Source: Mesotoga sp. BH458_6_3_2_1 (GTDB taxonomy: Bacteria; Thermotogota; Thermotogae; Petrotogales; Kosmotogaceae). Taken from it: a stretch of DNA of 64,000 nucleotides. Positions 9,718-27,499 of the stretch are shown here, in pieces; positions within the stretch are counted from its first letter, which is position 1; the number at the start of each line of letters is the position of its first letter. The notes under the pieces are model-generated. The model ran no database searches. It was not told where the DNA came from and saw only the letters and a program-made list of their open reading frames with translations. Location: assembly GCF_003664995.1 (NCBI RefSeq), contig NZ_JFHL01000026.1:62001-126000 (forward strand). Reading direction: 5' to 3'. Both the position numbers and the translations under genes were made by a program.

Positions 9718-11580
9718 ATGGAACAGTGCGTCCTGGACATCAAAGAACTAAGCAGCAATAATTCGGGCAATATCAATCTCAAGGAGATCAATCTGGAAGT
9801 CAACTCTTCCGAAGTTCACGCACTTGTGGGGGAGTATGGCGCCGGAAAGGAACTTGTCGTCAGCATCCTCACTGGAGCTGAGAAGAAGATTTCCGGGAGA
9901 GTATTTTTTGATGGAATAGATGTTACGGGCAAAATGAAGGTTGGAGGTTCGACAGATGTTCTGTTCCTCCTTGAAGAACCGATGGTCGCAGAGGGTTTGA
10001 CCGTGGCGGAGAACATGTACGTGTTGAGGAGTCATAGCAATGTGATCAAACTGATCAACCATTCAAAGATAAATCGTGCTGTGAAAGAGCTCATTGCAAG
10101 ATTCGACCTCGGCATTTCAGAGAAGACTCACGTGTATAAGCTTTCTACCGAGGAGAAGAAGCTTATAGAGCTTCTGAGACTGTGTATTTACGAGCCACGG
10201 CTAGTGGTTCTGTATGAACCCACTGCTAATCTTGGCTCCAAGTCTCAGGACCTTCTTCTTAGAATACTGAATGAACTTAAGGGGAAGGGGACTGGAATAC
10301 TTTACGTTACAAATAAGTGGGACGAGGCACTGAAGTACTCAGACAGAATCAGCGTTCTGTCGGAGGGAGTGCTTTGCGGAACTCTAAGCTCAGAAGAGGC
10401 AAAAGACAAGCCGGAGAAGCTTTTGAAACTTATACTTGGCTGGAAGAAATCAGATTCAACGAAACGCGAGGCCGAGGAAATAGAAACCGAAGATATAATT
10501 GATGCAGTTTTGAGGGCGGCCGAGTACCTTACTTCGAACTATGAAATCAACGATGTCTTGAAAATGCTTGAAAATTATACCTGCAAGATAATGGAATCTG
10601 ATTCGTGTTATGTGTACCTGGTTGACGAAAAGACCAGGACAATCATGGATACAATAAAACATAAGGAAACCGAGTCAATAGAAGCCGTTCTCAACGATGA
10701 AGTTGTTATGCGAATAATGGACAACAAGAAGCTATTTGTTTCCAATTTTGACGATGTTCTCTTCGAAAAGCTCTTCAAGAGCATTCGAAATACCGAGACA
10801 ATCGTTTGCGACCCAGTCTCCGTTAGATCTCACCACACCGCTTTGTTTCAGGTGGGCTATCGTAAATACTATGAACCAAATGAAAAGCAGAAGAAGATAT
10901 TTCATACGCTCTCGAGGCAAGTCGCTCTTGCAATAGATAATACGAGACTTATGGGAAGCTCGGTGCTGCTTCAGGAAAGTCACCACAGGATAAAGAACAA
11001 CCTTCAGACTATTGTAAGTCTCATAAATATTCAGAAAAGGAGTTTCGAAAAAAAGACAGACAACGAAGTCGAGGATCTGCTGGACAATGTCGTTTCCAGG
11101 GTGAAAAGCATAGCCGCCGTTCATGATCTCCTTTCTAACGACGAACTGGGCAGAAGTATAATAAACCTGAAGAGTCTTGTAGATACTATCGTACGTTTCA
11201 ACATAGTTGACGGCACTCTCCAGGTAAGGAAAGATCTTGACGACATCTTCATACCGTACGACAAAGCTAGCGGAATCTCACTGACAATAAGCGAACTGAT
11301 AAACAATTGTGTGAAACACGCTTTTAAAGATATTGATAGCGGGTTGATATCGATTTCCTGCAAGAGCTTTGACGATAATGTGGAAATAATCGTGGAGGAC
11401 AACGGCGCGGGATTTCCCAACAGATCCTTTTCAGCAAAAGACGAGAAACTGGGGCTTTCGCTTGCGAGATCCATCGTCGAGAATCAGTTCGACGGTACTC
11501 TTGAGATCGCCTCGGAAAAAGGAGCAAAAGTAAAGATCTTAATTCCAAAAGAGAGCCTGTTGCTCACGAGAGGCTCATAA
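9718..11580 (+). CDS. Hybrid sensor kinase: degenerate sugar-ABC ATPase domain, GAF, HisKA_2, HATPase
   Basis: A 620-residue cytoplasmic protein with no membrane segment. Residues 1-235 align in pattern with the first nucleotide-binding domain of CUT2 sugar ABC ATPases but lack key residues. The Walker A reads GEYGAGKEL (~38-46) where GxxGxGKST is expected. The signature loop reads LSTEEKK (~142), and Walker B reads LVVLYEPT (~162) with Tyr replacing Asp. Residues ~255-410 look like a GAF domain. Next is a HisKA_2 dimerisation/phosphoacceptor motif, ESHHRIKNNLQ (likely His422), then an HATPase_c domain with ELINNCVKHAF (N box) and DNGAGF. HisKA_2 kinases are known partners of ANTAR regulators, and one follows 51 bp downstream. 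I infer that the pseudo-ATPase docks on or senses the adjacent sugar transporters. ATG 9718 has AGAGGGG upstream. Confidence 0.85.
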   Translation: MEQCVLDIKELSSNNSGNINLKEINLEVNSSEVHALVGEYGAGKELVVSILTGAEKKISGRVFFDGIDVTGKMKVGGSTDVLFLLEEPMVAEGLTVAENMYVLRSHSNVIKLINHSKINRAVKELIARFDLGISEKTHVYKLSTEEKKLIELLRLCIYEPRLVVLYEPTANLGSKSQDLLLRILNELKGKGTGILYVTNKWDEALKYSDRISVLSEGVLCGTLSSEEAKDKPEKLLKLILGWKKSDSTKREAEEIETEDIIDAVLRAAEYLTSNYEINDVLKMLENYTCKIMESDSCYVYLVDEKTRTIMDTIKHKETESIEAVLNDEVVMRIMDNKKLFVSNFDDVLFEKLFKSIRNTETIVCDPVSVRSHHTALFQVGYRKYYEPNEKQKKIFHTLSRQVALAIDNTRLMGSSVLLQESHHRIKNNLQTIVSLINIQKRSFEKKTDNEVEDLLDNVVSRVKSIAAVHDLLSNDELGRSIINLKSLVDTIVRFNIVDGTLQVRKDLDDIFIPYDKASGISLTISELINNCVKHAFKDIDSGLISISCKSFDDNVEIIVEDNGAGFPNRSFSAKDEKLGLSLARSIVENQFDGTLEIASEKGAKVKILIPKESLLLTRGS

Positions 11581-11631: not shown

Positions 11632-12225
11632 ATGGACAATTCTTTAAACATACTTATTGCAGAAGACGAGTACATAGTCCTGAGAGGTCTTAAGGAAACA
11701 CTAATTGGCCTCGGTCATAAAGTTATAGGAGAGGTTATGGATGGAGAGACATTTGTGAAACTGGCACTTGAAACGGATCCAGACTTACTGATAGTAGATG
11801 TAAACCTACCCGCACTAAGCGGAATCGAAGCGATTGAAAGAATTGGAAAAGTGAAACTCGTACCCTCGATAATCGTTACGGGTTACAGCAGCGAAGAAAC
11901 CGTTAAGCGCGCGAACTCTGCAGGGGTCTTCAACTATCTCGTAAAACCCGTTGATGAGAAGGAACTCAAGCCCGCAATTGAGATTGCTATGGGTCGATTC
12001 AAAGAGTTCATGCTTCTCAAAAAGGAGCTCCATGAGCAGGAAGAAGCTCTAGAGGCTAGAAAACTTATAGAAAGGGCTAAAGGGATTTTAATGGACCGTA
12101 ACGGAATCAGAGAGTCAGAGGCAATGAAGTTGCTACAGAAGATCAGTAGAGACAGGAATTTGAAGCTCGTTGCAGTTGCAAAGGAAATCATAGAAGCCGA
12201 CAACACTTTGCATTACGGAATCTAG
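11632..12225 (+). CDS. Response regulator with ANTAR RNA-binding output (transcription antiterminator)
   Basis: A 197-residue two-component regulator. The REC domain (1-120) has the acidic pair EDE (11-13), phospho-acceptor Asp56 in LLIVDVNLP, a TGYS segment and Lys in YLVKPVDE. A coiled linker leads to an ANTAR domain (~135-190) with the typical RAKGILMDRNGIRESEAMKL helix and a following helix of conserved pattern. ANTAR proteins of the EutV/NasR/AmiR type bind paired hexaloop hairpins in nascent mRNA and prevent terminator formation. The hybrid kinase directly upstream is the likely phosphodonor. Matching leader structures occur at 12386-12468 and 21197-21285, so both sugar operons are likely targets. 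AAGGGG precedes ATG 11632. Confidence 0.92.
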   Translation: MDNSLNILIAEDEYIVLRGLKETLIGLGHKVIGEVMDGETFVKLALETDPDLLIVDVNLPALSGIEAIERIGKVKLVPSIIVTGYSSEETVKRANSAGVFNYLVKPVDEKELKPAIEIAMGRFKEFMLLKKELHEQEEALEARKLIERAKGILMDRNGIRESEAMKLLQKISRDRNLKLVAVAKEIIEADNTLHYGI

Positions 12226-12385: not shown

Positions 12386-12468
12386 TTGCGGCGATACTTA
12401 TGGTTGGTATTGCTTAGCAAAGGAAGATAAAGGTTATGGGTGCCTGATTACTGCAGGCACCCTTTTTT
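12386..12468 (+). promoter_or_regulatory. ANTAR-type two-hairpin antiterminator leader plus terminator (first sugar operon)
   Basis: Hairpin P1 has stem GCGATACT (12391-12398) pairing with GGTATTGC (12406-12413); an outer TTGC/GCAA pairing extends it to 12386-12420, and its loop contains ATGGTT. P2 has AGGT (12431-12434) pairing with GCCT (12442-12445) around a loop with ATGGGT. Both loops have A at position 1 and G at position 4, the conserved ANTAR contacts. A strong terminator, GGGTGCCTG (12438-12446) with CAGGCACCC (12454-12462) and TTTTTT, shares its 5' arm with P2, so P2 and terminator exclude each other. The element lies between the regulator gene and the cupin-led operon. Pairings were worked out by eye. 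Confidence 0.85.
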
Positions 12469-12557: not shown

Positions 12558-13196
12558 ATGGCAGTAGTTGATGTAAAACTGGAAAAACTGAGTGAAGTAA
12601 GTATGAGAGATTTCAGTACCTTTGGCAGAATCATTGGTAGAGATGAAGACACGGAAGAAGGCAAGTATGAGTTGCATCCCGTGGACGCAAAAGCCGCAGT
12701 CGAAAATAGCATGATCAAGGCTTACTGGGATCTAGTTCCTTTCAAGGACAACAAAGAAGACCGATTCTCAATGGGAATGCTTTTCGTTTATCCAAAGCCA
12801 ATAGGGGAAATCCTTAACTGGACAGAAGTTCATTATGAAACTCTTGAGTTCTTTTTCCCTCTGGGTGGAAAACAGTTCATATTCGTTCTTGCGCCGAAAT
12901 CGAAGATCCCCGAAGCCGAAAAGACCAGAGCCTTCCTTATAGGACCGAATGAAGGAGTCCTTCTGAACAAAGGGACATGGCATTACCCGCCTTTCGCAAT
13001 TGATGGTCCTACCCCCGTTTTGATGCCTCGCTTTGGAAAACTTGGAGAAATCACGGGCGACGTAACCGAGGCCTATGGAAAGAAATGGGAGACTCCCGTT
13101 GGAAACCGTTATTTCAAAGGACAACTGCACGCATTGAAGACCGATTACTACGGCGAAGGTTACGGAGGCGAATACAAGATAAGAATCATTCTTTGA
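12558..13196 (+). CDS. Ureidoglycolate-lyase-like (AllA family) cupin protein
   Basis: A soluble 212-residue protein resembling the AllA cupin family: a central HYETLEFFFPLGGKQFIFVLAP strand pair, then GVLLNKGTWHYPPFAI, where the buried His and Trp-His resemble the AllA active-site region, and a closing LMPRFGKL. AllA enzymes cleave ureidoglycolate. No other purine-degradation gene is present, and this gene leads a sugar-transport/kinase operon, so I expect a related lyase, isomerase or mutarotase-like step on a sugar or sugar acid. GGAGGAGAG precedes ATG 12558, directly after the antiterminator leader. The fold family is likely; the activity is inferred. Confidence 0.7.
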   Translation: MAVVDVKLEKLSEVSMRDFSTFGRIIGRDEDTEEGKYELHPVDAKAAVENSMIKAYWDLVPFKDNKEDRFSMGMLFVYPKPIGEILNWTEVHYETLEFFFPLGGKQFIFVLAPKSKIPEAEKTRAFLIGPNEGVLLNKGTWHYPPFAIDGPTPVLMPRFGKLGEITGDVTEAYGKKWETPVGNRYFKGQLHALKTDYYGEGYGGEYKIRIIL

Positions 13197-13293
13197 TTCC
13201 TTTGTTTGAAGGGAGGTTGGCACAAAGAAAAAAAGCTATTCGTGTGAATGTTTCGATCTATGAGAGTACTTCTTTTGAAGGAGGATGGTACAG

Positions 13294-14646
13294 GTGAAAA
13301 AGCTCAGTGTTCTGTTAATTGTTGTTATTGCTTTGTTTGGTGTTACTGCACTTTCAACGGAAACAATGGTATGCACGTATTCACAGATGGCAAACGACTT
13401 CTTCCTTACCTTTGACAAAGGCGCAAGGGAGGCTGTCGAGGCTCTTGGAAACATGTACATAGCAGCCAGCGACGACAGGAGCCCCGAAAAGTTCCTGTTC
13501 CAAATCGAGTCTTTCGCTGCCGCCGGTGTCAAGATGATATTTGGTTACTCCCCAACAATCGAATCTGTTATTCAGGCATCGAACTTCGTTAACAGAGAGA
13601 AAGTCTATTACGCAAACATTCTCGAGATAGCCGACTGGTGGACTCCGCTGGATGCAGGCCCATACTACGGTCAATTCATTGGACCTGACGCTTATGTCGA
13701 TGGTTATCTTGGCGGACTAGAAATGGGCAGACTTCTCAACGGAGAAGGCGAGACCTGCATTCTCTGGGGATTCCCCGGTTCCAAAGCAGGTAACGACAGA
13801 GCAAGAGGTTACAAATCCGCTCTTATGGAGAACTTCCCGAACATCACGGTTATCGGTGAGGAATATGCAGACTTCATAAGAGACAAGGGATACTCTGTTA
13901 CCAAAGACTGGATCGCAAAGTTCGGTGACAGGATAGACGGTATTTTTGGCACTGCGACAAGCATGAATGTTGGCGCGGCAATTGCCTGTGAAGAGGCCGG
14001 ATTGGACCATGTTTTCCAGGTCACAACCGACGCTAACAAGTCCAACCTCGTCGATATCCAAGATGGAAGTCTCGACGTTGTCGCTGGAATCTACGGATTC
14101 TGGATGGCCGGAAGACAGGCCGTTACTGTATACGACATGAAGAACGGCTGGAAACCAACCATTCCTGAAACGATGATGTCAACTATGCAGACCTTCATTA
14201 CTCCTGAAAACGTTGACTGGTACATCGAGACTTTCGGACAGGAAGGACCATACGACTACGACTGGAAGATGATGTCAAGAACGCTTCATCCAAACGACTG
14301 GGATCCACAGGGTCTTCTCGTTCCGATATACCCAGAGAGATTCACCAACTGGATTTACCTAGACAAGCCCAGGGGTTACGAAGTTCCCAAGGAATACAAG
14401 GACGCTATGGAATCCGGTCTTTACCAGGAGATCTACGAGCTTTACCTTGACAAGTTCACCGCTGCATGGGTTGTCCCTCCATTCGAGAGCTCCCCATACA
14501 ACTACGTATTCGTAGCGAACAACCTGGAAGAGGGTCTCAGAGCAGATATCGTTAAGAGAATGGAAAACGATGTGCTTGTTCATGAAGTGATTGACGTTCC
14601 TTACCGCTTTGATATTCCGGGTTTTGGAGAAGGATGTAATAACTAA
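13294..14646 (+). CDS. Sugar ABC transporter substrate-binding protein (CUT2 type)
   Basis: An exported periplasmic-binding protein of the Peripla_BP_4 class, about 450 residues. The signal peptide is VKKLSVLLIVVIALFGVTAL. Two lobes follow, with recognisable RbsB-like segments such as FDKGAREAVEALG, FGYSPTIESVI and DGIFGTATSMNVGAA. It is longer than RbsB (about 300 residues) because of a roughly 100-residue C-terminal extension rich in Trp and Tyr. GTG 13294 is preferred over ATG 13285, since AAGGAGG ends at 13284, touching the ATG but 9 nt from the GTG. It is the second gene of the operon and feeds the two permeases and the ATPase downstream. Confidence 0.85.
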   Translation: MKKLSVLLIVVIALFGVTALSTETMVCTYSQMANDFFLTFDKGAREAVEALGNMYIAASDDRSPEKFLFQIESFAAAGVKMIFGYSPTIESVIQASNFVNREKVYYANILEIADWWTPLDAGPYYGQFIGPDAYVDGYLGGLEMGRLLNGEGETCILWGFPGSKAGNDRARGYKSALMENFPNITVIGEEYADFIRDKGYSVTKDWIAKFGDRIDGIFGTATSMNVGAAIACEEAGLDHVFQVTTDANKSNLVDIQDGSLDVVAGIYGFWMAGRQAVTVYDMKNGWKPTIPETMMSTMQTFITPENVDWYIETFGQEGPYDYDWKMMSRTLHPNDWDPQGLLVPIYPERFTNWIYLDKPRGYEVPKEYKDAMESGLYQEIYELYLDKFTAAWVVPPFESSPYNYVFVANNLEEGLRADIVKRMENDVLVHEVIDVPYRFDIPGFGEGCNN

Positions 14647-14683
14647 GCACCTTATGATTCTAAAAAAACACTTTTGAATGCTG

Positions 14684-14725
14684 GAGTAGACTGTTCCAGC
14701 TCACAGGGAATCAGTCTACTCTTTC
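14684..14725 (+). other. Intra-operon hairpin between binding protein and permease genes
   Basis: GAGTAGACTG (14684-14693) pairs with CAGTCTACTC (14712-14721), and the stem continues inward with TTCC/GGAA around one bulge. It is followed by TTTCT. Such structures after binding-protein genes commonly protect the upstream mRNA or cause partial termination, giving more binding protein than membrane subunits. Confidence 0.7.
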
Positions 14726-14732
14726 TGGAAGG

Positions 14733-15717
14733 ATGAGGAATTTGGCTCTCAAAAATCTCTTGAAAAAAGGACTTAAAACAGAGAACCTTATTGAAGTACT
14801 TCCTTACTTCTTGCTTGCTGGAATCTTTGTGTTTTTCGCAATCTCATATCCGCCGTTTGCAAGAATAAGGAACATCACAGGCATTCTGACAGTCTCGAGC
14901 GTCTTCCTTCTGGTGGCCGCCGGAGAGACTTTTCCCATACTCATGGGGAGCATAGATCTCTCTGTGGGCGCCATGCTTTCATCGTCAGCGATTGTTGCCG
15001 CTTACTTCTTTCCTCAGGGTGGATTAGGGATGATAGTTCTTGCGATAGTCGTAGGATTCCTTTCGGGACTGGTTAACGGTCTACTGGTAGTACTTCTGAA
15101 ACTTCCGTCTTTCATCGTTACACTGGCGATGATGTATGTCTATGTGGGAATAGCTACTGGTCTAACAAATGGTTATAACATATCCATTAGAAACAGGGAC
15201 TTTGCCTGGATTTCGACGGGACAGATGATTGAAGGCATTCCAAACGTCATTATTTGGTCTCTGATAGTATTTGCAGTTTTCGTATTCATAAGCAGGAAGA
15301 CAGTAGTGGGAAGATACATTTTGGCAATAGGAAGCAACGAAGAATCCGTGAAGAAAATGGGAATCAACACCAATAAATACAGGATAATCGCGTTTATGTT
15401 TTCAGGCTTGTTGGTTGGCATTGCCTCGGTTTTGCTCTCTTCATTATCTGGGAATGGCCCCGTCCAGACTTGGAGACAAATATCTCTTCAATACTCTGAT
15501 AGCCGTCGTTGTAGGTGGAACTTCTATCATGGGAGGTTCCGGTGGTTTAATGAAGACACTCATAGGGGTTCTTCTCATCAGTATGTTCGATAATGGAATG
15601 AGTCTAATTGGAAGTACATCGAATGTACAGAACATTGCAAAAGGTATACTGTTAATCGCCGCAATTTCACTCGTAATGCTTCCTCACAGAAGAGGAAGAT
15701 TACTTCTTACTAAGTAG
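14733..15717 (+). pseudogene. Sugar ABC transporter permease (CUT2), frameshifted
   Basis: A RbsC-like inner-membrane permease split by one frameshift. The first frame (14733-~15452) encodes the N-terminal part including MGSIDLSVGAM and VNGLLVVLLKLPSFIVTLAMM. It runs out of family similarity after LSSLSG and stops at 15593. The second frame resumes at GMAPSRLGDKYLFNTL and continues through VVVGGTSIMGGSGG to 15717. Removing one G from the GGG run at 15450-15452 joins the halves into a normal ~327-residue permease. The rest of the operon is intact, so a sequencing error or very recent mutation is as likely as decay. The start lies after a GGAAGG site. Confidence 0.85.
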
Positions 15718-15735
15718 GCAGGGAGGTGGATGAAG

Positions 15736-16692
15736 ATGGATAATCAAAACAGGAAGCTAAAGTTCTCACTTTCTAAGTTATGGACTCCCTTACTGCTTGT
15801 GGTTTTGTTCTTGATATTCGGTTTGCAGTATCCTACGTTCTTGTCCGTAAAGAACTTCAACAACTTGCTCGTACAGATGGCTATTCTGCTGATTGCATCG
15901 ATGGGCATGTCCATGGTCGTTCTGATGGGAAGCATAGATGTCTCTGTCGGAGCGACGATAACGATTACCGCCGTGGCTTCTGCAATGGTCAGCTCGGCAC
16001 TGGGTGGAGCATCGATTGTCGTGGGGATGCTAGTGGGGGCTCTGGTAGGTCTGATAAACGGTCTTCTGGCTACTTTCCTCAAAATTCCGACGTTTCTATC
16101 TACTATCGCTATGATGGGAATCTTAAATGGAACTGCAGTCTTAATACTTAAAGGTTCTCCTTACAACGTCCATTCAGAATCCTTTTTGGCAGTCGCAAGA
16201 GGCAGCTTTCTAGGTGGCATATCGAACTTGATCACTATACCAATCATTGTAGTGCTTATAACCATAATAATAACCAAAAAGACAGTGCTTGGCAGAATGA
16301 TTTACGCTATTGGCAACAACGAGTATGTATGCCAGTATTCAGGGATCAGTGTTGTAAAGATTCAGACTTTTGTATTCATGATTCATGGTTCGCTCGTAGG
16401 GCTAGCCGGTGCTCTTGATGCATCTATGCTTGAAGCCGCTTGCCCATACTGCGGGGATACCTATACCTTGCCAGTGATTGCGATAGTTGTCATGGGTGGC
16501 ATTCCTCTTAGCGGAGGCCGGGGAGGACCAATCGGCACAGTCCTTGGAGCGATGCTGGTTACCGTTCTGATAAGCGGCTTGAATTTCATGGGCGTTACAC
16601 CCGAGTTCAGAAATGTCGCCATGGGCGCTCTAATAATTGCCGGTGCGCTCATGTCCAATGTCGGAAGACCAAAGATAATCACCGTTAAGTAA
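15736..16692 (+). CDS. Sugar ABC transporter permease (CUT2), second subunit
   Basis: An integral inner-membrane permease of ~318 residues with the BPD_transp_2 pattern: MGSIDVSVGATITI near residue 70, VGLINGLLATFLKIPTFLSTIAMM, then a cytoplasmic GRMIYAIGNNEYVCQYSGI loop that contacts the ATPase, and VVMGGIPLSGGRGG near the C-terminus. It has eight or more hydrophobic segments. It pairs with the preceding (frameshifted) permease as a likely heterodimer. ATG 15736 is preferred over ATG 15730 because GGGAGG ends at 15726. An unusual DASMLEAACPYCGDTYT segment, with two close cysteines, sits in the periplasmic loop before the last helices. Confidence 0.88.
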   Translation: MDNQNRKLKFSLSKLWTPLLLVVLFLIFGLQYPTFLSVKNFNNLLVQMAILLIASMGMSMVVLMGSIDVSVGATITITAVASAMVSSALGGASIVVGMLVGALVGLINGLLATFLKIPTFLSTIAMMGILNGTAVLILKGSPYNVHSESFLAVARGSFLGGISNLITIPIIVVLITIIITKKTVLGRMIYAIGNNEYVCQYSGISVVKIQTFVFMIHGSLVGLAGALDASMLEAACPYCGDTYTLPVIAIVVMGGIPLSGGRGGPIGTVLGAMLVTVLISGLNFMGVTPEFRNVAMGALIIAGALMSNVGRPKIITVK

Positions 16693-16737
16693 TCTTTGAT
16701 TCCAATAGGTGAGACAAAGAATGCGAGGTTTATCTGT

Positions 16738-18282
16738 ATGGATGAAAACATAAAAGGAAACAACAAAATCCTCTTCGAGATCAAGGGAATTGAAAGAAGC
16801 TATCCAGGTGTGCAGGCACTAAAGGACGTTACTTTCAATATCAACAGGAACGATGTTATTGGGTTCGCCGGAGAAAATGGAGCGGGAAAGTCAACTTTGC
16901 TTAAGCTGATAGCAGGAGTTGAACCACCCGATAAAGGAGAGATGTTCCTAGAAGGAAAGAAGTATGCTCCTCAAAGCTTCCGGGAGGCCAATACACTCGG
17001 AGTCTCGATGGTCTTTCAGGAGCAGAACCTTGTTCAGAGCCTGACTGTTTACGAGAATCTCTTTCTATCACACGAGAAGCGATTCCAGGTTGCCGGTACT
17101 CTCAAGAAGAGACAGATGATCTCCGAAGCGAAACGTTACCTGGAGAGTTTTGGGCTCGACATCGACCCCAGAAAGGAAGTTTCCCGATACTCTTTTCACG
17201 AGCGTCAGATGCTTGAGATAATCAGAGCGTTTGTTATCGCAGACATGTACAAAGTTCAGACGCCTCTAATACTTCTTGATGAGCCCACCGCGGCGCTCCC
17301 TGAAAAGGAGAGAGAGATTCTCCTTGAAAGAGTGAAAAGCTTTTCGAACAAAGCAACATTTGTATTTGTCTCACATCGGCTTTCAGAATTGATGAATGCC
17401 TGTAACAGGGTCCTGATTCTCAAAGACGGCCAGCTTATAGGAGAAGTGGACCCCGAGCTCTCGGAAGAGAGAGAGATTCACCCGCTCATGGTCGGAAGAG
17501 AGTTGAGCGCCGATACATACAGAGTTGAAGATCAGAAGGAATTCAACGGGGATGAGGACCCTGTTTTGAGAGTAAGAAATCTTTCCAAGAAAGGCCTTTA
17601 CAGCTCCGTTTCTCTGGAAGTGCGTCGAGGCGAGATACTTGGAATAGGAGGCCTCATAGGCTCTGGAAAGAAATTCCTTGGGGAGACGCTCTTTGGAGTG
17701 GACGAACCAACAGAGGGAGAGATAATCATTGACGGACATCCCGTGTCTAAATCAACAATTAGAAACATGACCAAGCTTAGAGTCGGGTATGTGCCTTCGG
17801 AGAGAAAGGAAAACGGAATAATCGGACTGTCAACTGTGGCCGACAATCTCACTATTACCAGATTCGACGAGTTCAGCAGTCGCTTTGGCTTCTTGAACAA
17901 CAAAAAGGAACTCAGACTGATCAAAGAGGGAATAGAGAAATTCCGAATAAAGGCAACAAGCGAAGATCTGTGCTTTTCATTGAGTGGAGGAAACCAACAA
18001 AAAATCGTGTTGACCAAGTGGATTATGAAGAATCTCGACATTCTGATTCTCGACAACCCCACCAGAGGCATAGACATCGGAGCTAAAGAGGAGATATACA
18101 CCTTCATAAGAGAAGCGGCAAATAAGAACCTCGCCATCATCTTAATAACAGACGACTTGCTCGAACTCATTGGATTGAGCAACAGGATAGTCATTATGAA
18201 AGATGGAAACATCTCGCTTATCGTTGATGCTGATAAAAAGCGTAAACCAACCGAGCAAGAACTAGTAAGAGATATGGTATAA
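16738..18282 (+). CDS. Sugar ABC transporter ATPase with two nucleotide-binding domains (CUT2)
   Basis: A RbsA-type double-cassette ATPase of 514 residues that powers the two permeases upstream. Domain 1 has a perfect Walker A (GENGAGKST) and Walker B (LILLDEPTAAL) but a diverged signature (YSFHERQMLEII). Domain 2 has the degenerate Walker A typical of this class (GLIGSGKKF), an intact signature LSGGNQQK and Walker B-like LILDNPTRGIDIG with Asn where the catalytic Glu would be. Both features are usual in CUT2 ATPases. The frame extends to a TTG at 16696, but ATG 16738 begins the conserved region and has GAGG about 10 nt upstream. Confidence 0.9.
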   Translation: MDENIKGNNKILFEIKGIERSYPGVQALKDVTFNINRNDVIGFAGENGAGKSTLLKLIAGVEPPDKGEMFLEGKKYAPQSFREANTLGVSMVFQEQNLVQSLTVYENLFLSHEKRFQVAGTLKKRQMISEAKRYLESFGLDIDPRKEVSRYSFHERQMLEIIRAFVIADMYKVQTPLILLDEPTAALPEKEREILLERVKSFSNKATFVFVSHRLSELMNACNRVLILKDGQLIGEVDPELSEEREIHPLMVGRELSADTYRVEDQKEFNGDEDPVLRVRNLSKKGLYSSVSLEVRRGEILGIGGLIGSGKKFLGETLFGVDEPTEGEIIIDGHPVSKSTIRNMTKLRVGYVPSERKENGIIGLSTVADNLTITRFDEFSSRFGFLNNKKELRLIKEGIEKFRIKATSEDLCFSLSGGNQQKIVLTKWIMKNLDILILDNPTRGIDIGAKEEIYTFIREAANKNLAIILITDDLLELIGLSNRIVIMKDGNISLIVDADKKRKPTEQELVRDMV

Positions 18283-18306
18283 GAATAGCTAAGGTGGTGT
18301 AAAGAG

Positions 18307-19299
18307 ATGAAGAAGCTTATCAATGATCCCAAGAGTGTGGTAATCGAAATGTGTCAGGGAATGGTAAAGGCCTTCCCGGATAATCTCGCACTTAACGAGG
18401 AATTCATGGTGATTTCAAGAAAGAATCCCGACAAGAACAAGGTCATTCTAATCAGTGGCGGAGGAAGCGGCCATGAACCTGCTCATGCAGGGTTCGTAGG
18501 CAAGGGAATGCTTGATGCGGCCGTATGTGGTGATGTCTTTGCTTCACCGTCTGTAATACAGGTTTTCAACGCCATAAAACACAACCATTCGGAGCAAGGG
18601 GTTTTGCTGGTTATAAAGAATTATTCTGGAGATGTCATGAACTTCGAAAGCGCTGCTGCAATGGCTGAAGATTACGATATTAGGGTTGATAGCGTTTGTG
18701 TAAATGATGATATCTCAATCGAAAAAAAGGAAGACAGACGGGGCGTGGCTGGAACGATCTTCGTTCACAAAATTGCTGGAGCTCTGGCCGAAAGGGGAGC
18801 TTCTCTCAGGCAGGTGAAAGAGATCGCCCAAAGAGTTATCGACAATGTTAGAACAATGGGGATTGCACTGACTTCCTGTATAGTCCCAGCAAGGGGAAAA
18901 CCAACTTTCGACCTTGAAGAGGACAAGATCGAGGTTGGCGTCGGAATTCACGGAGAAGCCGGAATATTTAGAGAGCGATTGCTATCAGCTAAAGAAACTG
19001 CCGACCTGATCATTGAAAAAATACTTGGCGAATTATCCGTATCAAAGGAAGAAGAGGTTGCCGTACTGATAAATGGATTCGGTGGAACTCCTCTTCAAGA
19101 GCTTTTCATACTTAACAACGAGGTTGCCTCGATTCTTAAGGACAAGGGAATAGCGGTGGCGAAAACTCTAGTTGGAAGTTATATGACGTCCATAGATATG
19201 GAGGGTGCGTCAATCTCAGTTCTTAAGCTCGACGAGCAGATGAAGAGACTTCTCTCTGCACCCTGTGAAACCGCTGCCTGGAAGGAAACGGAGGCTTAG
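18307..19299 (+). CDS. DhaK-type ketose kinase substrate-binding subunit
   Basis: A cytoplasmic 330-residue homologue of dihydroxyacetone kinase subunit K. The three hallmark residues are present: His in GGGSGHEPAHAGFVG (~residue 58), Asp in KNYSGDVMNFE (~107) and the substrate-linking His in GVGIHGEAGI (~216). DhaK binds short ketoses by a hemiaminal bond for phosphorylation by DhaL. No PTS-type DhaM is in the window, so an ATP-dependent kinase is likely. AAGGTGGTG precedes ATG 18307. The subunit L gene follows after 3 bp. Substrates known for this family include dihydroxyacetone and erythrulose; the one used here is unknown. Confidence 0.9.
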   Translation: MKKLINDPKSVVIEMCQGMVKAFPDNLALNEEFMVISRKNPDKNKVILISGGGSGHEPAHAGFVGKGMLDAAVCGDVFASPSVIQVFNAIKHNHSEQGVLLVIKNYSGDVMNFESAAAMAEDYDIRVDSVCVNDDISIEKKEDRRGVAGTIFVHKIAGALAERGASLRQVKEIAQRVIDNVRTMGIALTSCIVPARGKPTFDLEEDKIEVGVGIHGEAGIFRERLLSAKETADLIIEKILGELSVSKEEEVAVLINGFGGTPLQELFILNNEVASILKDKGIAVAKTLVGSYMTSIDMEGASISVLKLDEQMKRLLSAPCETAAWKETEA

Positions 19300-19302
19300 A
19301 AC

Positions 19303-19947
19303 ATGACTGTAATCTCGAAAGATGAATTCATAGAAATCGTTGGAATCGCTGTCGACTCTATACTGGAAAACGAACAGTACTTCTGTGATCTCGATTCTGT
19401 TGCCGGAGACGGTGATTTTGGAGCTTCTTTGGCGAAAGGCTTCTCTGAAGTCAAGTCAAAGTGGAAGGATCTCGAAAAGAGCAATGTTGGAACCTTTTTG
19501 AGAGACTGCAGCATGATAATAATGGAAAAATGTGGTGGAGCCTCCGGTCCAATCTGGGGCAATGCTTTTTTGAGCGCTTCTAGAGCTTCGAAAGGAAAGG
19601 AGAGTCTCGAAATTGCAGACATCGCCGAACTCTTCCAGGCGATGGTAGATGGAGTACAGAAGGTCGGTAAAGCTGAACTAGGTGACAAAACTCTTCTAGA
19701 TGCGCTTATCCCCTTCAAAGAATCTTTGAAGGAAAGCGCAAAGCTGAATGAACCAATAGAAGCGGCCTTTGAAAAGGCCGTAACCAGAGCAGAAGAAGGA
19801 GCCGAATCTACAAAAACGATTGTTGCGACGAAAGGAAGGGCCAGATATCTGGGCGGCAGGAGCATTGGCGCATATGACGCGGGTGCTAGAGCGGTTGCAG
19901 TCATTCTCTCAGATATTCAAAATCGCTTCTTCAACAAAACGAAGTGA
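19303..19947 (+). CDS. DhaL-type ketose kinase nucleotide-binding subunit
   Basis: A 214-residue DhaL (DAK2) homologue providing the ATP and Mg site for the adjacent DhaK. The metal-binding aspartates are in VAGDGDFGASLAKG. KCGGASGPIWGNAF is the nucleotide-binding loop, GDKTLLDALIPF carries the conserved Asp of the lid region, and GRARYLGGRSIGAYDAGA closes the family pattern. The gene begins 3 bp after dhaK, so it is co-transcribed and probably translationally coupled. Together the pair forms a likely two-component sugar kinase acting on the solute imported by the transporter encoded upstream. Confidence 0.9.
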   Translation: MTVISKDEFIEIVGIAVDSILENEQYFCDLDSVAGDGDFGASLAKGFSEVKSKWKDLEKSNVGTFLRDCSMIIMEKCGGASGPIWGNAFLSASRASKGKESLEIADIAELFQAMVDGVQKVGKAELGDKTLLDALIPFKESLKESAKLNEPIEAAFEKAVTRAEEGAESTKTIVATKGRARYLGGRSIGAYDAGARAVAVILSDIQNRFFNKTK

Positions 19948-19974
19948 GACTTTTGCCGATGGAAGGTGATTAAT

Positions 19975-21196: not shown

Positions 21197-21285
21197 TCCT
21201 TCGCGCTCATGGTTGGTGCGATGGAAAAGCATAGAGCTTAGAGGTTATGGGTGCCTTGAGTTATGGGGCACCTTTATGCTTTTTT
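21197..21285 (+). promoter_or_regulatory. Second ANTAR-type two-hairpin leader plus terminator (second sugar operon)
   Basis: This repeats the architecture at 12386-12468. P1: CGC-TC (21204-21208) pairs with GG-T-GCG (21215-21220, one bulged T) around loop ATGGTT. P2: AGGT (21242-21245) pairs with GCCT (21253-21256) around ATGGGT. The loops are identical to those of the first leader and have A1 and G4. The terminator uses GGTGCC (21250-21255) with GGCACC (21267-21272), sharing its 5' arm with P2. An outer AAGCATA/TATGCTT pairing (21227-21233 / 21275-21281) runs into a T tract ending at 21285. It precedes the GATase1-like gene by about 95 bp. Confidence 0.82.
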
Positions 21286-21379
21286 CTTTGAGAATTTGAT
21301 CACAATTTTGCATTAATGAAGAATTTTTCAAATAAAGGCCCGTTGGTGACCTAATTCAAAATCAAAAGGAGGTATTTTC

Positions 21380-22129
21380 GTGCTTAAAGTATTCTATTGT
21401 GGAGATCAGGTAATGCTGATCACAACGTACGTAAAAGGTATGAATTCCTGGACAGATGGAGTTGTACATGATGAAAGTTTCCATCTGAGAAAGGCTCTTG
21501 AATCGGATTCTGAAATCGATCTGACTTACTTGCCTACAAGCGAGGTCCAGAGAAACTTCCCGAAGCCGGACGAGCTTGGACAGTACGACGTGATACTTTT
21601 CAGCGACGTTGGTACAGATACGGTAATAATGTACGAAGACAGATTTAACAACTGCCCCATGGGGGTCGACAGACTTGGTGCACTGAAGAAATGGACGCGT
21701 GATGGCGGCGGCTTCTGTGGTGTAGGCGGCTGGCTATCCTTTGGAGGCATGTTTGGAGTAGCCAAGTGGCACAAGACTCCCGTTGAGGAGATACTTCCCG
21801 TCACCTGTTATCCATACGACGACAGAGTCGAAATTTCCGAAGGTATGACTCCTAAAGTCCTCAAGAAAGACCATCCGATCTTCAAGGGAGTAGACTTCGA
21901 TTCGGCTCCCCCTCTCTTCTCCGGATACAACGAAGTAAAGGCAAAGCCCGAAGGAGAAGTCCTGGCAGAACACAACGGAGATCCAATAATCGTGACCGGT
22001 CAGTATGGAAAGGGTAGAACGCTTGCATTCGCAACCGATCCAGCTCCTCACTGGGGCCGCGGGATGGTCGAATGGAAGGATTACGGTCAATTCTGGGTAA
22101 ATGTGGTGAAGTGGCTTGGAGGCAAATAA
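21380..22129 (+). CDS. GATase1/ThuA-like cytoplasmic protein
   Basis: A 249-residue protein of the glutamine-amidotransferase-like (ThuA/COG5426-type) fold. It has an early VFYCGDQ strand, QYDVILFSDVG, a DGGGFCGVGGWLSFGG turn at the nucleophile-elbow position with Cys near residue 115, and a closing VTGQYGKGRTLAFATDPAPHW. ThuA-type proteins occur widely in sugar-utilisation operons, but their reactions are mostly unproven. GTG 21380 has AAAAGGAGG upstream. It is the first gene of the second antitermination-controlled operon, 2 bp before the second dhaK. It probably acts on the same sugar pathway; the exact role is unknown. Confidence 0.75.
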   Translation: MLKVFYCGDQVMLITTYVKGMNSWTDGVVHDESFHLRKALESDSEIDLTYLPTSEVQRNFPKPDELGQYDVILFSDVGTDTVIMYEDRFNNCPMGVDRLGALKKWTRDGGGFCGVGGWLSFGGMFGVAKWHKTPVEEILPVTCYPYDDRVEISEGMTPKVLKKDHPIFKGVDFDSAPPLFSGYNEVKAKPEGEVLAEHNGDPIIVTGQYGKGRTLAFATDPAPHWGRGMVEWKDYGQFWVNVVKWLGGK

Positions 22130-22131
22130 CC

Positions 22132-23136
22132 ATGAAGAAGATCATTAACTCCACTGACAATTTGATCACGGAAATGCTCGATGGAATTGTTATGGCCTTC
22201 CCAAAGGATTTCAAGAGAGTCGAAGGCTTTGACAAAGCCTTGATCACACCAAGAGCACCCGTGAAAAACAAGGTAGGCATCGCAACCGGTGGCGGTTCAG
22301 GTCACCTGCCACTCTTCCTGGGATATATTGGCGAAAACCTTCTCGACGGCGCCGCAGTCGGCGACGTATTCTCATCGCCTTCGGCCGAGACTATGCTTGC
22401 GATCACAAAGGTTATCGACAGCGGGAAAGGCGTTCTCTATTTGTATGGAAACTACGGCGGAGACATCATGAACTTCGACATGGCCGCAGAAATGGCAGAA
22501 GAAGAGGGAATCCGGGTTGAAACGAGTATCGGTTGTGACGATGTGGCATCGGCCCCGGCAGATGATGCCGGTTCAAGAAGAGGAATAGCAGGGCTGATCT
22601 TCGCATATAAGATTGCCGGCGCAAAGGCTGCCACGGGTGCCTCTCTTGAAGAAGTAAAAGAAACAACCGACAGAGCTCTGAATGTTATCAGAACAATGGG
22701 AGTCGCCCTTTCACCATGCACGATTCCTGCAGTCGGATTGCCTACTTTTGAGATTGGCGATGATGAAATGGAAATCGGAATGGGCATTCATGGAGAGCGA
22801 GGTATAAAGCGTGAAAAACTCAAGAGTGCCGACGAGATTGCTAGTTTCATGACGGGGAGAGTAATCGACGATCTTCCATTCGAATCGGGAGACGAGGTTG
22901 CAGTGCTTATCAACGGGCTAGGTGCGACAGCACCTCAGGAACTCTATGTTACCTTCAGAAAGGTCAAGGAGATACTCGATCTGAAGAAAATCAATATATA
23001 CAAGTCATTCGTGGGAGAATACGCAACTTCAATGGAGATGAAAGGTCTTTCGATAACTCTCTTCAAACTTGACAGGGAATTCAAAGAGCTCCTAGATATG
23101 CCGGTTCATTCGCCGATGCTTCTGCAGCAATTCTGA
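22132..23136 (+). CDS. Divergent DhaK-type ketose kinase subunit
   Basis: A second DhaK homologue of 334 residues. The catalytic pattern is kept (GGGSGH, GNYGGDIMNFD, GMGIHGERGI), but the first substrate loop reads GHLPLFLGYIG instead of the usual GHEPxHxGYVG. Loss of Glu and of the second His suggests a different substrate from the kinase at 18307. The frame extends back into the preceding gene; ATG 22132 is chosen because it starts 2 bp after that gene's stop with a GGAGG site inside its 3' end. It is followed by its own DhaL partner. Confidence 0.88.
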   Translation: MKKIINSTDNLITEMLDGIVMAFPKDFKRVEGFDKALITPRAPVKNKVGIATGGGSGHLPLFLGYIGENLLDGAAVGDVFSSPSAETMLAITKVIDSGKGVLYLYGNYGGDIMNFDMAAEMAEEEGIRVETSIGCDDVASAPADDAGSRRGIAGLIFAYKIAGAKAATGASLEEVKETTDRALNVIRTMGVALSPCTIPAVGLPTFEIGDDEMEIGMGIHGERGIKREKLKSADEIASFMTGRVIDDLPFESGDEVAVLINGLGATAPQELYVTFRKVKEILDLKKINIYKSFVGEYATSMEMKGLSITLFKLDREFKELLDMPVHSPMLLQQF

Positions 23137-23150
23137 GGGGCGGTGGTCAA

Positions 23151-23795
23151 ATGAAAGAAGCCATTAGTGCAGCAAAGATCTCAGAGATTCTCTTAGGTGC
23201 CTGCAATTCACTTGAAAAGAACCATATCGATGAATTTAGAGCTCTTGACGCTGCCATAGGTGACGGAGATCTAGGCATCACTATAAGAAAGGGCTGTACA
23301 GCGATAATCGAAACACTAAAGACTTTTCAGACTGAGGATACTGGGGCTCTGATAAAGAAGTGTGGAATTCAGTTTAATCAGGCAAATCCCTCCACCTTCG
23401 GAGTTCTGACCGCAAGCGCGTTCATTGAGGGAGGCAAGAAGGTTTCGGGAAAGGAATCTCTCACTCTGGATGAAATCGCCGGTATGTTCAGGGCTGCACT
23501 AGAGGGAATTATGAAGAGAGGAAAGGCAAAGACGGGAGAAAAAACGATGCTCGATGCTCTTGAACCCGCTGTGGAAGTTCTTGAAAAGGCCGCTTCTGAA
23601 GACAAATCGATTAAGGAAGCCTTCGAGAAAGCTGCAGAGGCCGCAAAAGATGGACTGGAAAGAACTAAGGACATGGAAGCAAAGAAGGGTAGAGCGAAAG
23701 CATTCGGCAGCCGCACGGTCGGCGAGCAGGATCCCGGAGCAACAGTTGTTTACCGCTTTCTGAGGGAAGTTTCAGAAGAACTAAACAAATCTTGA
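23151..23795 (+). CDS. Divergent DhaL-type ketose kinase subunit
   Basis: A 214-residue DhaL/DAK2 homologue, partner of the DhaK 14 bp upstream. Metal-site aspartates appear in DAAIGDGDLGITIRKG, followed by GEKTMLDALEPA and GRAKAFGSRTVGEQDPGA. The nucleotide loop is altered: KCGIQFNQANPSTFGVLT replaces the GGxSG-type motif seen in the other DhaL of this cluster. This could change nucleotide handling or coupling. GGGGCGG precedes the ATG. The conserved metal site suggests the pair is still an active kinase. Confidence 0.87.
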   Translation: MKEAISAAKISEILLGACNSLEKNHIDEFRALDAAIGDGDLGITIRKGCTAIIETLKTFQTEDTGALIKKCGIQFNQANPSTFGVLTASAFIEGGKKVSGKESLTLDEIAGMFRAALEGIMKRGKAKTGEKTMLDALEPAVEVLEKAASEDKSIKEAFEKAAEAAKDGLERTKDMEAKKGRAKAFGSRTVGEQDPGATVVYRFLREVSEELNKS

Positions 23796-23809
23796 AAAGG
23801 GGTGAAGGA

Positions 23810-24871
23810 ATGAAGAAGCGTTTTATTATTTCGATTCTTGTAATCATGGTTCTAGCGCTTTCAAGTATGACGTTCGCAGGAACTGAATATGCGAAAGACG
23901 TGACGGTCGCAATCTGTGGGCATGGACTTGAGGCAGAATCCTGTCAGAGAGATTTCCAGCAGGTGAAGATCGAATGCGCTCACAGGGATTGGGAGTTTAT
24001 CGATGCAATGACCGTAAGAGATCCAGCCCAGCAGCGTGAAACTATGGAGACCTTGATCCAGAAGAAAGTAGATGCCATCGTAATCATCTACTGGGACATG
24101 GAAGCTATCGCAGACCTCATTCTCAAAGCAACCGAAGAGGGTATTGGTGTCTACTGTGTTGACACTGAAGTTAAGCCTGGAGTCATTGTCAGTTGTACAC
24201 AGAATAACGCCGTTGCCGGAGCTCTAATGAGTTACTGGGGAATCCAGAGGCTAAACGAGAGAGGGAAAGTGGCGATTTTCAGTGGTAAGTGGCATATTAT
24301 GAGACGAAGAGCCTATGTCGCCGCAACGCTCTTCGAAAGAGATTGGCCGGCCATTGAGCTTGTTGCCGAAGAATTTCTACCTCTCGTTGGATACGAAGAC
24401 AGCGCTTTCAACGTTGCAGTCAACTGGATGACAAAGTATGGAAATGACCTCGACTGGATATTTGCCGGTTGGGACACTCCCGGTCAGTACGCCGCACGTG
24501 CAATTGAACAGGCGGGATTCGACAAGGACGATATTTTCGTTACCGGTATTGATGGAGGTTCGGCCGTTTACTCTATGATAAGAAGTGGATCTCCATTTGT
24601 TGCCACAGTAAGTCAGCCATTCGAATACTACGTTCACACAGTATTTGAAGTCATCAACCAGGTAGAAATGGGAATTGGTCCTGATCATCCAGACTCTCTC
24701 GTACCTCCGGGAAGAGTCATCTATGCAACTCCGTACGTAACAGATGAGACAAATGTTCCCGAACCAGGAAGTTCTATCCACGCTGTTTTTGGTTATTACG
24801 GAATGGATCCCGACGACCCAGATGCATGGTTCAACTGGCAAGACGCTGGCGGTCCATACAAGATTCAGTAA
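23810..24871 (+). CDS. Sugar ABC transporter substrate-binding protein (CUT2), second system
   Basis: An exported RbsB/Peripla_BP_4-type binding protein of 353 residues. The signal peptide is ~22 residues, ending in SSMTFA. The first lobe has VAICGHGLEAESCQRDFQQV and MEALIQKKVDAIV-like RbsB segments, and the second has DWIFAGWDTPGQYAARAIEQ and VTGIDGG. The C-terminal Trp-rich tail is shorter than in the first system's binding protein. The frame opens at TTG 23792 inside dhaL, but ATG 23810 has GGGGTGAAGGA upstream and begins the signal peptide. Confidence 0.87.
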   Translation: MKKRFIISILVIMVLALSSMTFAGTEYAKDVTVAICGHGLEAESCQRDFQQVKIECAHRDWEFIDAMTVRDPAQQRETMETLIQKKVDAIVIIYWDMEAIADLILKATEEGIGVYCVDTEVKPGVIVSCTQNNAVAGALMSYWGIQRLNERGKVAIFSGKWHIMRRRAYVAATLFERDWPAIELVAEEFLPLVGYEDSAFNVAVNWMTKYGNDLDWIFAGWDTPGQYAARAIEQAGFDKDDIFVTGIDGGSAVYSMIRSGSPFVATVSQPFEYYVHTVFEVINQVEMGIGPDHPDSLVPPGRVIYATPYVTDETNVPEPGSSIHAVFGYYGMDPDDPDAWFNWQDAGGPYKIQ

Positions 24872-24889
24872 TCGACCTGCTTTAGAAGC

Positions 24890-24923
24890 CAATATCGGGA
24901 GAGAGAAGCCTCTCCCGATATTG
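24890..24923 (+). other. Intra-operon hairpin after the second binding-protein gene
   Basis: A perfect 14-bp stem, CAATATCGGGAGAG with CTCTCCCGATATTG, has a 6-nt loop and no T tract. It lies between the binding-protein and ATPase genes. As at 14684, the likely role is to stabilise the binding-protein mRNA or set subunit ratios rather than to terminate fully. Confidence 0.75.
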
Positions 24924-24955
24924 ATTCGAGATTACCTGGTGAAAGAAGGTCTAAT

Positions 24956-26455
24956 ATGACGGACAAGAATATTGTTTTGAAGACTGTATCGATATCTAAA
25001 TCCTTTCCGGGGGTCAAAGCCCTGAACAACGTAGACTTCGATTTGCTCGAGGGTGAGATTCATGCTATTTGTGGTGAAAACGGAGCAGGAAAGAGCACTT
25101 TCTGCAATGTCTTGACCGGAATAGTCAGACCTGATGAGGGAAATGTCTTTCTCAACGGTGCGGAAGTGAGACTCACTCACCCTTCCCAGGCCCTCAGACT
25201 GGGGATAAGAATGGTTTATCAGGAGCGGAACCTCATCCCGTATCTCACCGGCGCTCAAAACATCCTTTTGAGAGAGGAACCCGTCAAGGGAGGTTTCCTG
25301 ATAGACGAAAAATCAATTCTTTCAAAGGCAGAAGAACTATCTGAACTCTACAATCTAAGAGTACCTCTCGGCATCCCCGTTGCGCTTCTCAGTTCCGCGC
25401 AAAGACAGGCCATAGAGATTCTTCGTGCTTTCCTCTACAAGCCGAAGATATTGATTCTTGACGAGCCTACTTCAAGTCTTACCGAGTCGGAAGTCAAGTC
25501 ACTGTTCAGTGCAATCCATCAGATAAAAAATGAAGGTGTTTCCGTAATACTAATTACTCACAAACTTGAGGAAGTCTTCGAAAACGCAGACAGGATTTCG
25601 ATTTTCAGAAATGGTGAGCGAGTAACCACAAGGGATAAGAAAGCCCTTTCTGAGGAAGAGGCGATAAGACTTATGGTTAACAGGAATATTTCCAGCCTCT
25701 TTCCCGAAGTGACGGATCATTCAGGGGACACGATACTACAGGTCGAAAACCTTAGCGGTTCGGGATTCCTTAAGGATATTAGTATTCACTTGAAAAAGGG
25801 AGAAGTTCTTGGATTATATGGTCTTATTGGTTCTGGAAGAACCGAGCTAATAGAACACTTGTACGGTCTGAGAGAAACAAAGACCGGCAGAGTAATTGTC
25901 AAAGGCAAAGAAGTCCAGCCTAATGTCCACAAAATGATTGAGAAAGGTGTCTTTCTTGTACCGGACGACAGAAGAGAAAAGGGACTACTTACAAGTTTGA
26001 ATCTGAAGAAGAATTTGACAATATCATATATTAATGAGTTCTCAAAACTCCTTGGAGTTGTCTCGACCAGGAGAGAAAATGCTCTGGTTAAGACCATTCT
26101 TGACAAGAGCTCACTAAGTCTCAAGTACTCGAATATCAATCAGGACGTCCAGGTTCTGAGCGGCGGTAATCAACAAAAAGTCGTAATAGGCCGATGGATC
26201 TCAAAGGATCATATGAGCATATTGATTCTCGACGATCCGACAAATGGAATCGACGTTGGGACGAAGTTCGAAATCTACAAGATGATCAGAAATCTTGCTG
26301 AAGAAAAGAGCGTAGGCGTGATTTTCATTTCTTCTGAACTCCCAGAACTTATAGGAGTTTGTGATAGGCTTTATGTCTTTAAAGAAGGGCGAATCTCTGG
26401 TGAGCTGTCTCGGGAAGAATTCGATGATGAAAAGATATTATCCATGGCTCTTTAA
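24956..26455 (+). CDS. Sugar ABC transporter ATPase with two nucleotide-binding domains (CUT2), second system
   Basis: A 499-residue RbsA-type ATPase. Domain 1: GENGAGKST, signature LSSAQRQAIEI and Walker B LILDEPTSSL. Domain 2: degenerate GLIGSGRTE, intact signature LSGGNQQK and LILDDPTNGIDVG. It energises the single permease encoded next (26522). AAGAAGG lies 7 nt before ATG 24956. Its first domain is a useful comparison for the pseudo-ATPase part of the kinase at 9718: the kinase has lost the Ser/Thr and Asp residues that this protein keeps. Confidence 0.92.
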   Translation: MTDKNIVLKTVSISKSFPGVKALNNVDFDLLEGEIHAICGENGAGKSTFCNVLTGIVRPDEGNVFLNGAEVRLTHPSQALRLGIRMVYQERNLIPYLTGAQNILLREEPVKGGFLIDEKSILSKAEELSELYNLRVPLGIPVALLSSAQRQAIEILRAFLYKPKILILDEPTSSLTESEVKSLFSAIHQIKNEGVSVILITHKLEEVFENADRISIFRNGERVTTRDKKALSEEEAIRLMVNRNISSLFPEVTDHSGDTILQVENLSGSGFLKDISIHLKKGEVLGLYGLIGSGRTELIEHLYGLRETKTGRVIVKGKEVQPNVHKMIEKGVFLVPDDRREKGLLTSLNLKKNLTISYINEFSKLLGVVSTRRENALVKTILDKSSLSLKYSNINQDVQVLSGGNQQKVVIGRWISKDHMSILILDDPTNGIDVGTKFEIYKMIRNLAEEKSVGVIFISSELPELIGVCDRLYVFKEGRISGELSREEFDDEKILSMAL

Positions 26456-26521
26456 ATCGAAGATTGCTAACTGCCAATTCAAGGGTGAATACCTGGAAGG
26501 GCTAGATGAGGAGGATAGGTC

Positions 26522-27499
26522 ATGATCTCAAAAGAAAACCTGGCTTCAGTAGTGAGAAGATACGGTGTGTTATTTGCATTGATCGCCGTATTTGCCGTAT
26601 TCTCATTCATGGAACCTACCTTTTATAGTGTAAGAAATATTCTATCGATTATTAGACAGGCAAGCATAACGGGAATCCTCGCTATCGGGCTAACTACTGT
26701 TGTAATAGCCGGTGAATTCGATATGTCGTTCGCATCACTTGCAGGGTTCTCCGGTGTTCTCAGTGTAATACTGATGGGAAAACTCTTCATGGGAGCAATT
26801 CCCGCGTGGATCATCTCCCTCCTGGCAGCTTTGGGAGTCGGTGCTCTGAACGGACTGGTAATACTTTTCATTGGGGTTCCGTCGATAATTACAACCATTG
26901 GAATGATGACGCTTCTTGCCGGATTTACGAAATGGCTTACGGGAGGATCGACCTACTACTCAGCGAAGTTCCCGGAAATATTTCCATTCCTTGGAAGGTC
27001 TTTTCTCTTTGAGACAATTCCAATGCCGGTAGTAATATTCGCAATCATTATAGCAATTTATGTGGTTGTTCTTGAACATACGAAGATCGGAAGATTCTTT
27101 CACGCAGTAGGTGGAAACCCAAAAGCATCTGAGCATGTAGGTATTAAAGTTCGGAAGGTGAAGTTCATTGCCCTGCTGATTTCGGGATTCATGGCTGGTC
27201 TCGCCGGAATAATGATTGGATCTCTTCTTGGATCGGGCACACCGGCCATGGGCGACGGATACCTTATGCCAGGGATAAGTGCAATGTTTATTGGAGCAGT
27301 CTTTCTACGTGATGGAGTCCCAAATATCTGGGGAACCGTTATTGGCTCTCTTCTACTGTCAGTTCTGACAAATGGATTTGTTATGATCAATCTTCCTTTC
27401 TACATGAAGGAGATAGTGCTTGGAGCGGTTCTAATTGGATCAGTAAGCATGGTAGCGATTTTCAAGAAAGGTTCTATACCAGGAGTGAATCTCCTTTAG
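26522..27499 (+). CDS. Sugar ABC transporter permease (CUT2), second system
   Basis: A 325-residue inner-membrane permease with the RbsC pattern: VIAGEFDMSFASLAGFSGVL (the equivalent of GxIDLSVG), VGALNGLVILFIGVPSIITT, GRFFHAVGGNPKASEHVGI (ATPase-contact loop) and FIGAVFLRDGVPNIWGT near the end. Only one permease gene is present, so a homodimer is likely, unlike the two-permease first system. GGAGGATAGGTC precedes ATG 26522. It is the last gene of the operon; no clear terminator follows. Confidence 0.9.
   Translation: MISKENLASVVRRYGVLFALIAVFAVFSFMEPTFYSVRNILSIIRQASITGILAIGLTTVVIAGEFDMSFASLAGFSGVLSVILMGKLFMGAIPAWIISLLAALGVGALNGLVILFIGVPSIITTIGMMTLLAGFTKWLTGGSTYYSAKFPEIFPFLGRSFLFETIPMPVVIFAIIIAIYVVVLEHTKIGRFFHAVGGNPKASEHVGIKVRKVKFIALLISGFMAGLAGIMIGSLLGSGTPAMGDGYLMPGISAMFIGAVFLRDGVPNIWGTVIGSLLLSVLTNGFVMINLPFYMKEIVLGAVLIGSVSMVAIFKKGSIPGVNLL

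Follow-up and report, generated by a model that had tools for sequence, protein, structure and literature searches.

The window, i.e., the whole stretch of 64,000 nucleotides of Mesotoga DNA that was analyzed, contains two sugar-uptake/kinase operons, each preceded by a short leader (Table 1). The genes of a histidine kinase and a response regulator lie directly upstream of leader 1, and leader 2 (21197-21285) stands before the operon that starts with a GATase1-like gene. The regulator, the only ANTAR protein of the genome, matches PF00072 (6.4e-23) and PF03861 (1.6e-19), is clearly related to EutV and Rv1626 by its PDB match, and retains the REC phospho-acceptor D56 together with K105. A search for consensus sigma-70 promoters before leader 1 and leader 2 found none. 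It should be noted that the first permease gene of operon 1 (14733-15717) has one extra base near 15443 that the intact orthologues in L021 and L022 lack, and the gene falls into two reading frames; this could be a real frameshift or an error of sequencing. A gene for an RHS-like-repeat protein (19966-21090), conserved in the same-genus orthologues, lies between the operons, directly after DhaL.

Table 1. Genes and RNA features of the two-leader locus (window coordinates)
Feature	Coordinates	Strand	Description and basis
Histidine kinase	9718..11580	+	Degenerate ABC-ATPase-like domain (1-240), GAF-like, HisKA_2, HATPase_c; Pfam, motifs, AlphaFold
Response regulator	11632..12225	+	REC+ANTAR; Pfam, genome search, PDB match, alignment
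Leader 1, hairpin P1	12391..12413	+	GCGATACT[TATGGTT]GGTATTGC, arms gcgatact / ggtattgc; sequence reading
Leader 1, hairpin P2	12431..12445	+	Sequence identical to leader 2 P2; sequence reading, R1
Leader 1, terminator-like hairpin and T tail	12438..12468	+	Overlaps P2; stem 12438-12462
Operon 1	12558..19947	+	Ureidoglycolate-lyase-like protein, sugar-binding protein, two permeases, dual ATPase, DhaK, DhaL; putative limits
Leader 2, hairpin P1	21201..21221	+	TCGCGCT[CATGGTT]GGTGCGA; U.G closing pair; stem covaries in orthologues L021, L022, L112
Leader 2, linker	21222..21241	+	20 nt, with predicted small AAGC/GCTT hairpin; ViennaRNA
Leader 2, outer pairing	21227..21281	+	AAGCATA/TATGCTT; perfect in window, unconserved
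Leader 2, hairpin P2 (putative antiterminator)	21242..21256	+	AGGT[TATGGGT]GCCT; sequence reading, R1, folding
Leader 2, terminator-like hairpin and T tail	21249..21286	+	5' arm inside P2; stem 21249-21273
Operon 2	21380..27499	+	GATase1-like protein, DhaK, DhaL, sugar-binding protein, dual ATPase, permease; putative limits

Structure of the two leaders

Direct reading of the sequence resolves each leader into two hairpins and, sharing the second of these, a terminator. Both leaders match our covariance model R1 at nearly the same score (12391-12446, 53.9 bits; 21200-21257, 54.1 bits). The original prediction, made from the letters of this DNA, held that the two leaders carry the same two loops, the same AGGT/GCCT second stem and the same overlap with a terminator, and have different P1 stems. 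The second stem and the difference in P1 were found as described, and each terminator stem starts inside P2; the loop cores, ATGGTT and ATGGGT, are identical, but the loops are 7 nt long (Y-ATGGTT and U-ATGGGT), not 6. Folding with ViennaRNA gave P1 and P2 for a transcript that ends with P2, with an additional small linker hairpin in leader 2, and P1 and the terminator for the full-length leader in both cases; thus, P2 and the terminator are mutually exclusive.

The main stem of leader 2 is followed by TTATGC and only then by the T run, so that its U tract is imperfect. The extra outer AAGCATA/TATGCTT stem, which had been proposed as a distinguishing feature of leader 2, is indeed perfect in the window, but it has one uncompensated mismatch in each of two same-genus orthologues and is absent from the orthologue of another genus (L112); it is therefore unsupported as a selected feature, and we rejected it as a conserved one.

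Rarity, conservation and co-occurrence with ANTAR genes

Using R1, which was built from 20 leaders, we scanned the whole 3.23-Mb genome and found exactly two strong sites (E of 1.6e-10 and 1.7e-10, approximately 54 bits each); the third-best site, with 14.7 bits and E=2.7, is noise. Random occurrence of the motif across the genome had been named beforehand as a refuting outcome; this test was run, and the prediction was not refuted. A strict loop-and-stem descriptor yielded no sites in the 64-kb window beyond the two leaders, and a genome-wide search for exact ATGGKTG pairs produced six matches, four of them without hairpins or terminator.

Both leaders are kept at orthologous positions in two other species of the genus. 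A further genome of the same genus (G024) has leader 2 only, its contig ending within operon 1; G024 aside, the other same-genus species without an ANTAR gene have no leader. The position of leader 2 is conserved in three other genomes of the genus and in another genus (L021, L022, L119, L120), with unaltered loops and P2 and with compensatory changes in P1; in G018, which represents a different genus of the same family, it precedes the orthologous GATase1-like operon (L120/L112). Double-sided stem changes were counted in 20 cells, compared to 6.3 in shuffles, for 11 Thermotogota leaders, and in 60 cells, compared to 14.7, for 20 leaders; these shuffles ignore the relatedness of the sequences, and the Firmicutes leaders were partly chosen for having stems. 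The leaders of a second Thermotogota family (f2) first came to light through terminator scanning, which is less biased. The claim of preserved loops with changed stems thus holds for the compensatory changes, which exceed the shuffled expectation, but not for the outer stem of leader 2 or for the loop letters beyond A2 and G4, which vary (ATGATT, ATGAAT, AAGGGT). The predicted two-operon regulon is supported: there are exactly two sites in the genome, both before sugar-uptake/kinase operons and near the sole ANTAR gene, and both are kept in two congeners. These results support two operons under one RNA element as the best reading of the two leaders.

Among 103 Thermotogota genomes, the leader was found in 9 of the 13 with an ANTAR gene, versus 2 of the 90 without (Fisher p=1.4e-8). 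No ANTAR gene was found in the leader-bearing genomes G018 and G024; both assemblies are fragmented, and the G024 contig is broken inside operon 1. One of the four ANTAR-positive genomes without the leader (L027) instead carries a canonical hexaloop leader (AATGAT/AATGAG) that belongs to a eut system. In the other three, G035 (L025), G048 (L030) and G050 (L032), the ANTAR gene is kept, the ABC-kinase is truncated or missing and the leader was not found; the module seems to be decaying there. In L120 (G018:C54), operon 2 is present with its leader, and the ANTAR gene and the ABC-kinase were undetected in a 91%-complete genome, i.e., this is either an orphan leader or an assembly gap. In the eut locus of L027 (7887-10142), transposase-like genes (8343-9925) lie between the REC-coding and the ANTAR-coding part of the EutV gene and make the regulator look broken; eutA still has its intact canonical eut leader in front.

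We also scanned 85,000 genomes once with the kinase alignment and obtained 38 loci with the ABC-kinase or its remnant, mostly in Firmicutes (Halanaerobiales, Bacillaceae, Christensenella, Lachnospiraceae and others), with Fusobacteriales and one Thermotogota. An adjacent ANTAR regulator is present in all 38 loci, and a CUT2 transporter in nearly all. R1 detected leaders at E<=0.01 in 29 of the 38 (19 of these lie outside the model-building set) and weaker ones in four more; the best match among 27 control kinase loci had E=1.1. Kinase, ANTAR regulator, leader type and CUT2 transporter thus recur together in both Thermotogota and Firmicutes. The enzymes beside this module vary: DhaKL in Mesotoga; a pentitol-type dehydrogenase, an FGGY kinase and an AraD-like epimerase in Bacillaceae; and a PfkB kinase in Orenia. 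The CUT2 transporter is therefore the more constant partner. In several leaders from Firmicutes, a further P1-type hairpin precedes P1-P2, giving three tandem loops (L036 12805-12918, L040 12568-12688, L042 12557-12671, L047 8892-9014, L064 1756-1877, L037 12609-12686).

Comparison with known ANTAR target RNAs

ANTAR proteins capture a pair of small hairpins, so that a terminator overlapping the second one does not form (PMC3369931, PMC8934654). Published target RNAs have hexaloops with A1 and G4 (PMC3369931, PMC8934654, PMC8164766), and in the crystal structure of EutV with RNA, G4 is the sole base that is read specifically. The leaders in the window have this layout, i.e., tandem small stem-loops upstream of a gene, the second overlapping an intrinsic terminator, and the one ANTAR gene of the genome adjoins leader 1. 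The linkers of 17 nt (leader 1) and 20 nt (leader 2) fall within the accepted range of 2-25 nt, and reach up to 27 nt in some relatives. The loops depart from the rule: they have 7 nt in the window and 6-7 nt in relatives, and their first base, C or U in the window, varies among relatives. What is invariant across the leaders, counting from the closing pair, is A2 and G4, with U.G or C-G closing. The ATGGTT and ATGGGT cores of the window could be fitted to A1/G4; the orthologous loops (ATGATT, ATGAAT, AAGGGT and others) vary. It should be noted that the exclusivity of A2/G4 in Firmicutes is partly by construction, because the model and the descriptors favor it; the Thermotogota orthologues are unaffected. 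A canonical A1/G4 hexaloop descriptor, applied to the Thermotogota loci and the window, recovered the L027 eut leader, the true leaders, whose ATGG letters satisfy both spacings, and three sites in other loci that are due to chance; its strict version gave one chance site in the 38 ABC-kinase loci.

The closest known system is EutV/EutW, which controls eut in Enterococcus faecalis (PMC3369931, PMC8934654). It shares with Mesotoga a HisKA_2-type kinase with a REC-ANTAR regulator, the two hairpins with the second overlapping an intrinsic terminator, the loop G4 and several leaders per regulator. It differs in its hexaloops with A1, as opposed to 7-nt loops (6-7 in relatives) with A2 and an invariant U.G/C-G closing pair, and in its shorter linkers (5-12 nt); the Mesotoga set is linked to sugar uptake, and the input of its kinase is a dead ABC-ATPase domain. 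Actinobacterial ANTAR-target RNAs (PMC8164766) likewise have dual stem-loops with a linker of 2-25 nt; unlike the Mesotoga leaders, they are defined by hexanucleotide loops with prevalent A1/G4, and many act on translation. At the positions of EutV R168, M172, R175 and R177, the regulator subfamily has Q, mostly R/K/N/Q, N and K; judging from the alignment, these altered RNA-contact residues would match the altered loop type. Since both the loops and the contact residues depart from the ANTAR norm, we describe the leaders as a variant working like an ANTAR target, rather than as strict members of the class. Multi-operon ANTAR regulons have been known since a study of 2012; therefore, the regulon idea itself is not new.

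Proposed switch, its input and alternative explanations

We regard leader 2, with high confidence, as a variant ANTAR-type antitermination element, through which the kinase-regulator pair would switch both operons together; it is very probably the RNA-binding response regulator from the adjacent gene that reads both leaders and lets transcription pass the terminators. By analogy with EutV, we would expect the following in the cell. When there is no signal, the nascent RNA would fold into P1 and the terminator, and transcription would stop before the GATase1-like operon, as it would at the twin leader before operon 1. The stimulated kinase would phosphorylate the regulator, which would dimerize and bind the A2/G4 loops of P1 and then of P2. 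Held by the regulator, P2 would keep the 5' arm of the terminator unpaired, and both operons would be read together. In Thermotogota, for which few descriptions of ANTAR regulation seem to exist, the hairpin pair becomes a defined and testable two-operon switch. It would also extend ANTAR RNA recognition past the A1/G4 hexaloop rule, and published searches using that rule could miss the class.

The probable signal is a sugar, a polyol or the state of the CUT2 transporter; possibly, it is the transporter itself that is sensed. Residues 1-240 of the kinase match ABC_tran in Pfam (4.2e-17), and NCBIfam scores place them nearest the ribose-type (CUT2) transporter ATPases. AlphaFold predicts a full nucleotide-binding-domain fold here with good local confidence; we do not trust the arrangement of domains in the model, because the overall pTM of 0.46 is low. 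Compared with the features of an active ABC ATPase (Walker A GxxGxGK[ST], the signature, the Walker B Asp and the H-loop His), the motifs are destroyed: Walker A is GEYGAGKE, the signature LSTEEKK and Walker B VVLYEP, and the H-loop His is absent. Among about 40 relatives, practically none keeps the Asp of Walker B or the His of the H-loop, and most have lost Walker A, which is intact in three members (L041, L043, L044). By these motifs, the domain is catalytically dead, and its fold is predicted to be intact.

We tentatively suggest that this domain may dock on the CUT2 permease, replacing the real ATPase or sitting beside it, and may report transport activity to an ANTAR regulator that has its own class of A2/G4 7-nt loops and matching altered contact residues; this would be a transporter-coupled module so far undescribed. 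A search of the open-access literature found neither a kinase fused to an ABC ATPase domain nor such a module in Mesotoga. Transporter-linked two-component systems are known, e.g., CbrA, in which an SLC5 transporter domain is fused to the kinase (PMC7096432). They likewise have a transporter-derived domain within a sensor kinase or as its partner; the Mesotoga system, whose kinase may interact with the transporter, differs in its catalytically dead ABC nucleotide-binding domain and its putative output by RNA antitermination. With this kinase family present in at least three phyla, signaling from ABC transporters to gene expression becomes testable.

Another explanation changes the kinase input only and leaves the RNA output as it is: the dead ABC and GAF domains would sense the nucleotide or energy state, or another cytosolic ligand, instead of docking on a transporter. 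We give this a substantial chance, somewhat short of even. It is favored by the presence of the GAF-like domain and by the three members with an intact Walker A; however, practically the whole family has lost the Asp of Walker B and the His of the H-loop, and most members Walker A, and CUT2 transporter genes accompany nearly all loci, in contrast to the variable enzymes.

An explanation that touches the RNA itself, i.e., that the leaders serve another ligand or protein (a riboswitch, a LicT-like antiterminator or a T-box) and that the neighboring ANTAR gene is a coincidence, appears very unlikely. The loop length and the position of the A are indeed unlike those of described ANTAR RNAs. Yet an Rfam scan gave no family matching the window, or seven leader loci at a permissive threshold; the leader type tracks ANTAR genes across the 103 Thermotogota genomes and ANTAR/kinase loci in Firmicutes; and the bare layout of two hairpins and a terminator is that of an ANTAR RNA. 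Least probable of all is that leader 2 is a decayed or constitutive copy whose weaker, interrupted terminator leaks, leaving leader 1 alone regulated: its imperfect U tract and unconserved outer stem would fit, but decay would not yield intact loops and P2 with a compensatory P1, as kept in L021, L022, L119 and L120, and the full-length leader 2 folds with a ViennaRNA minimum free energy of -32.3 kcal/mol.
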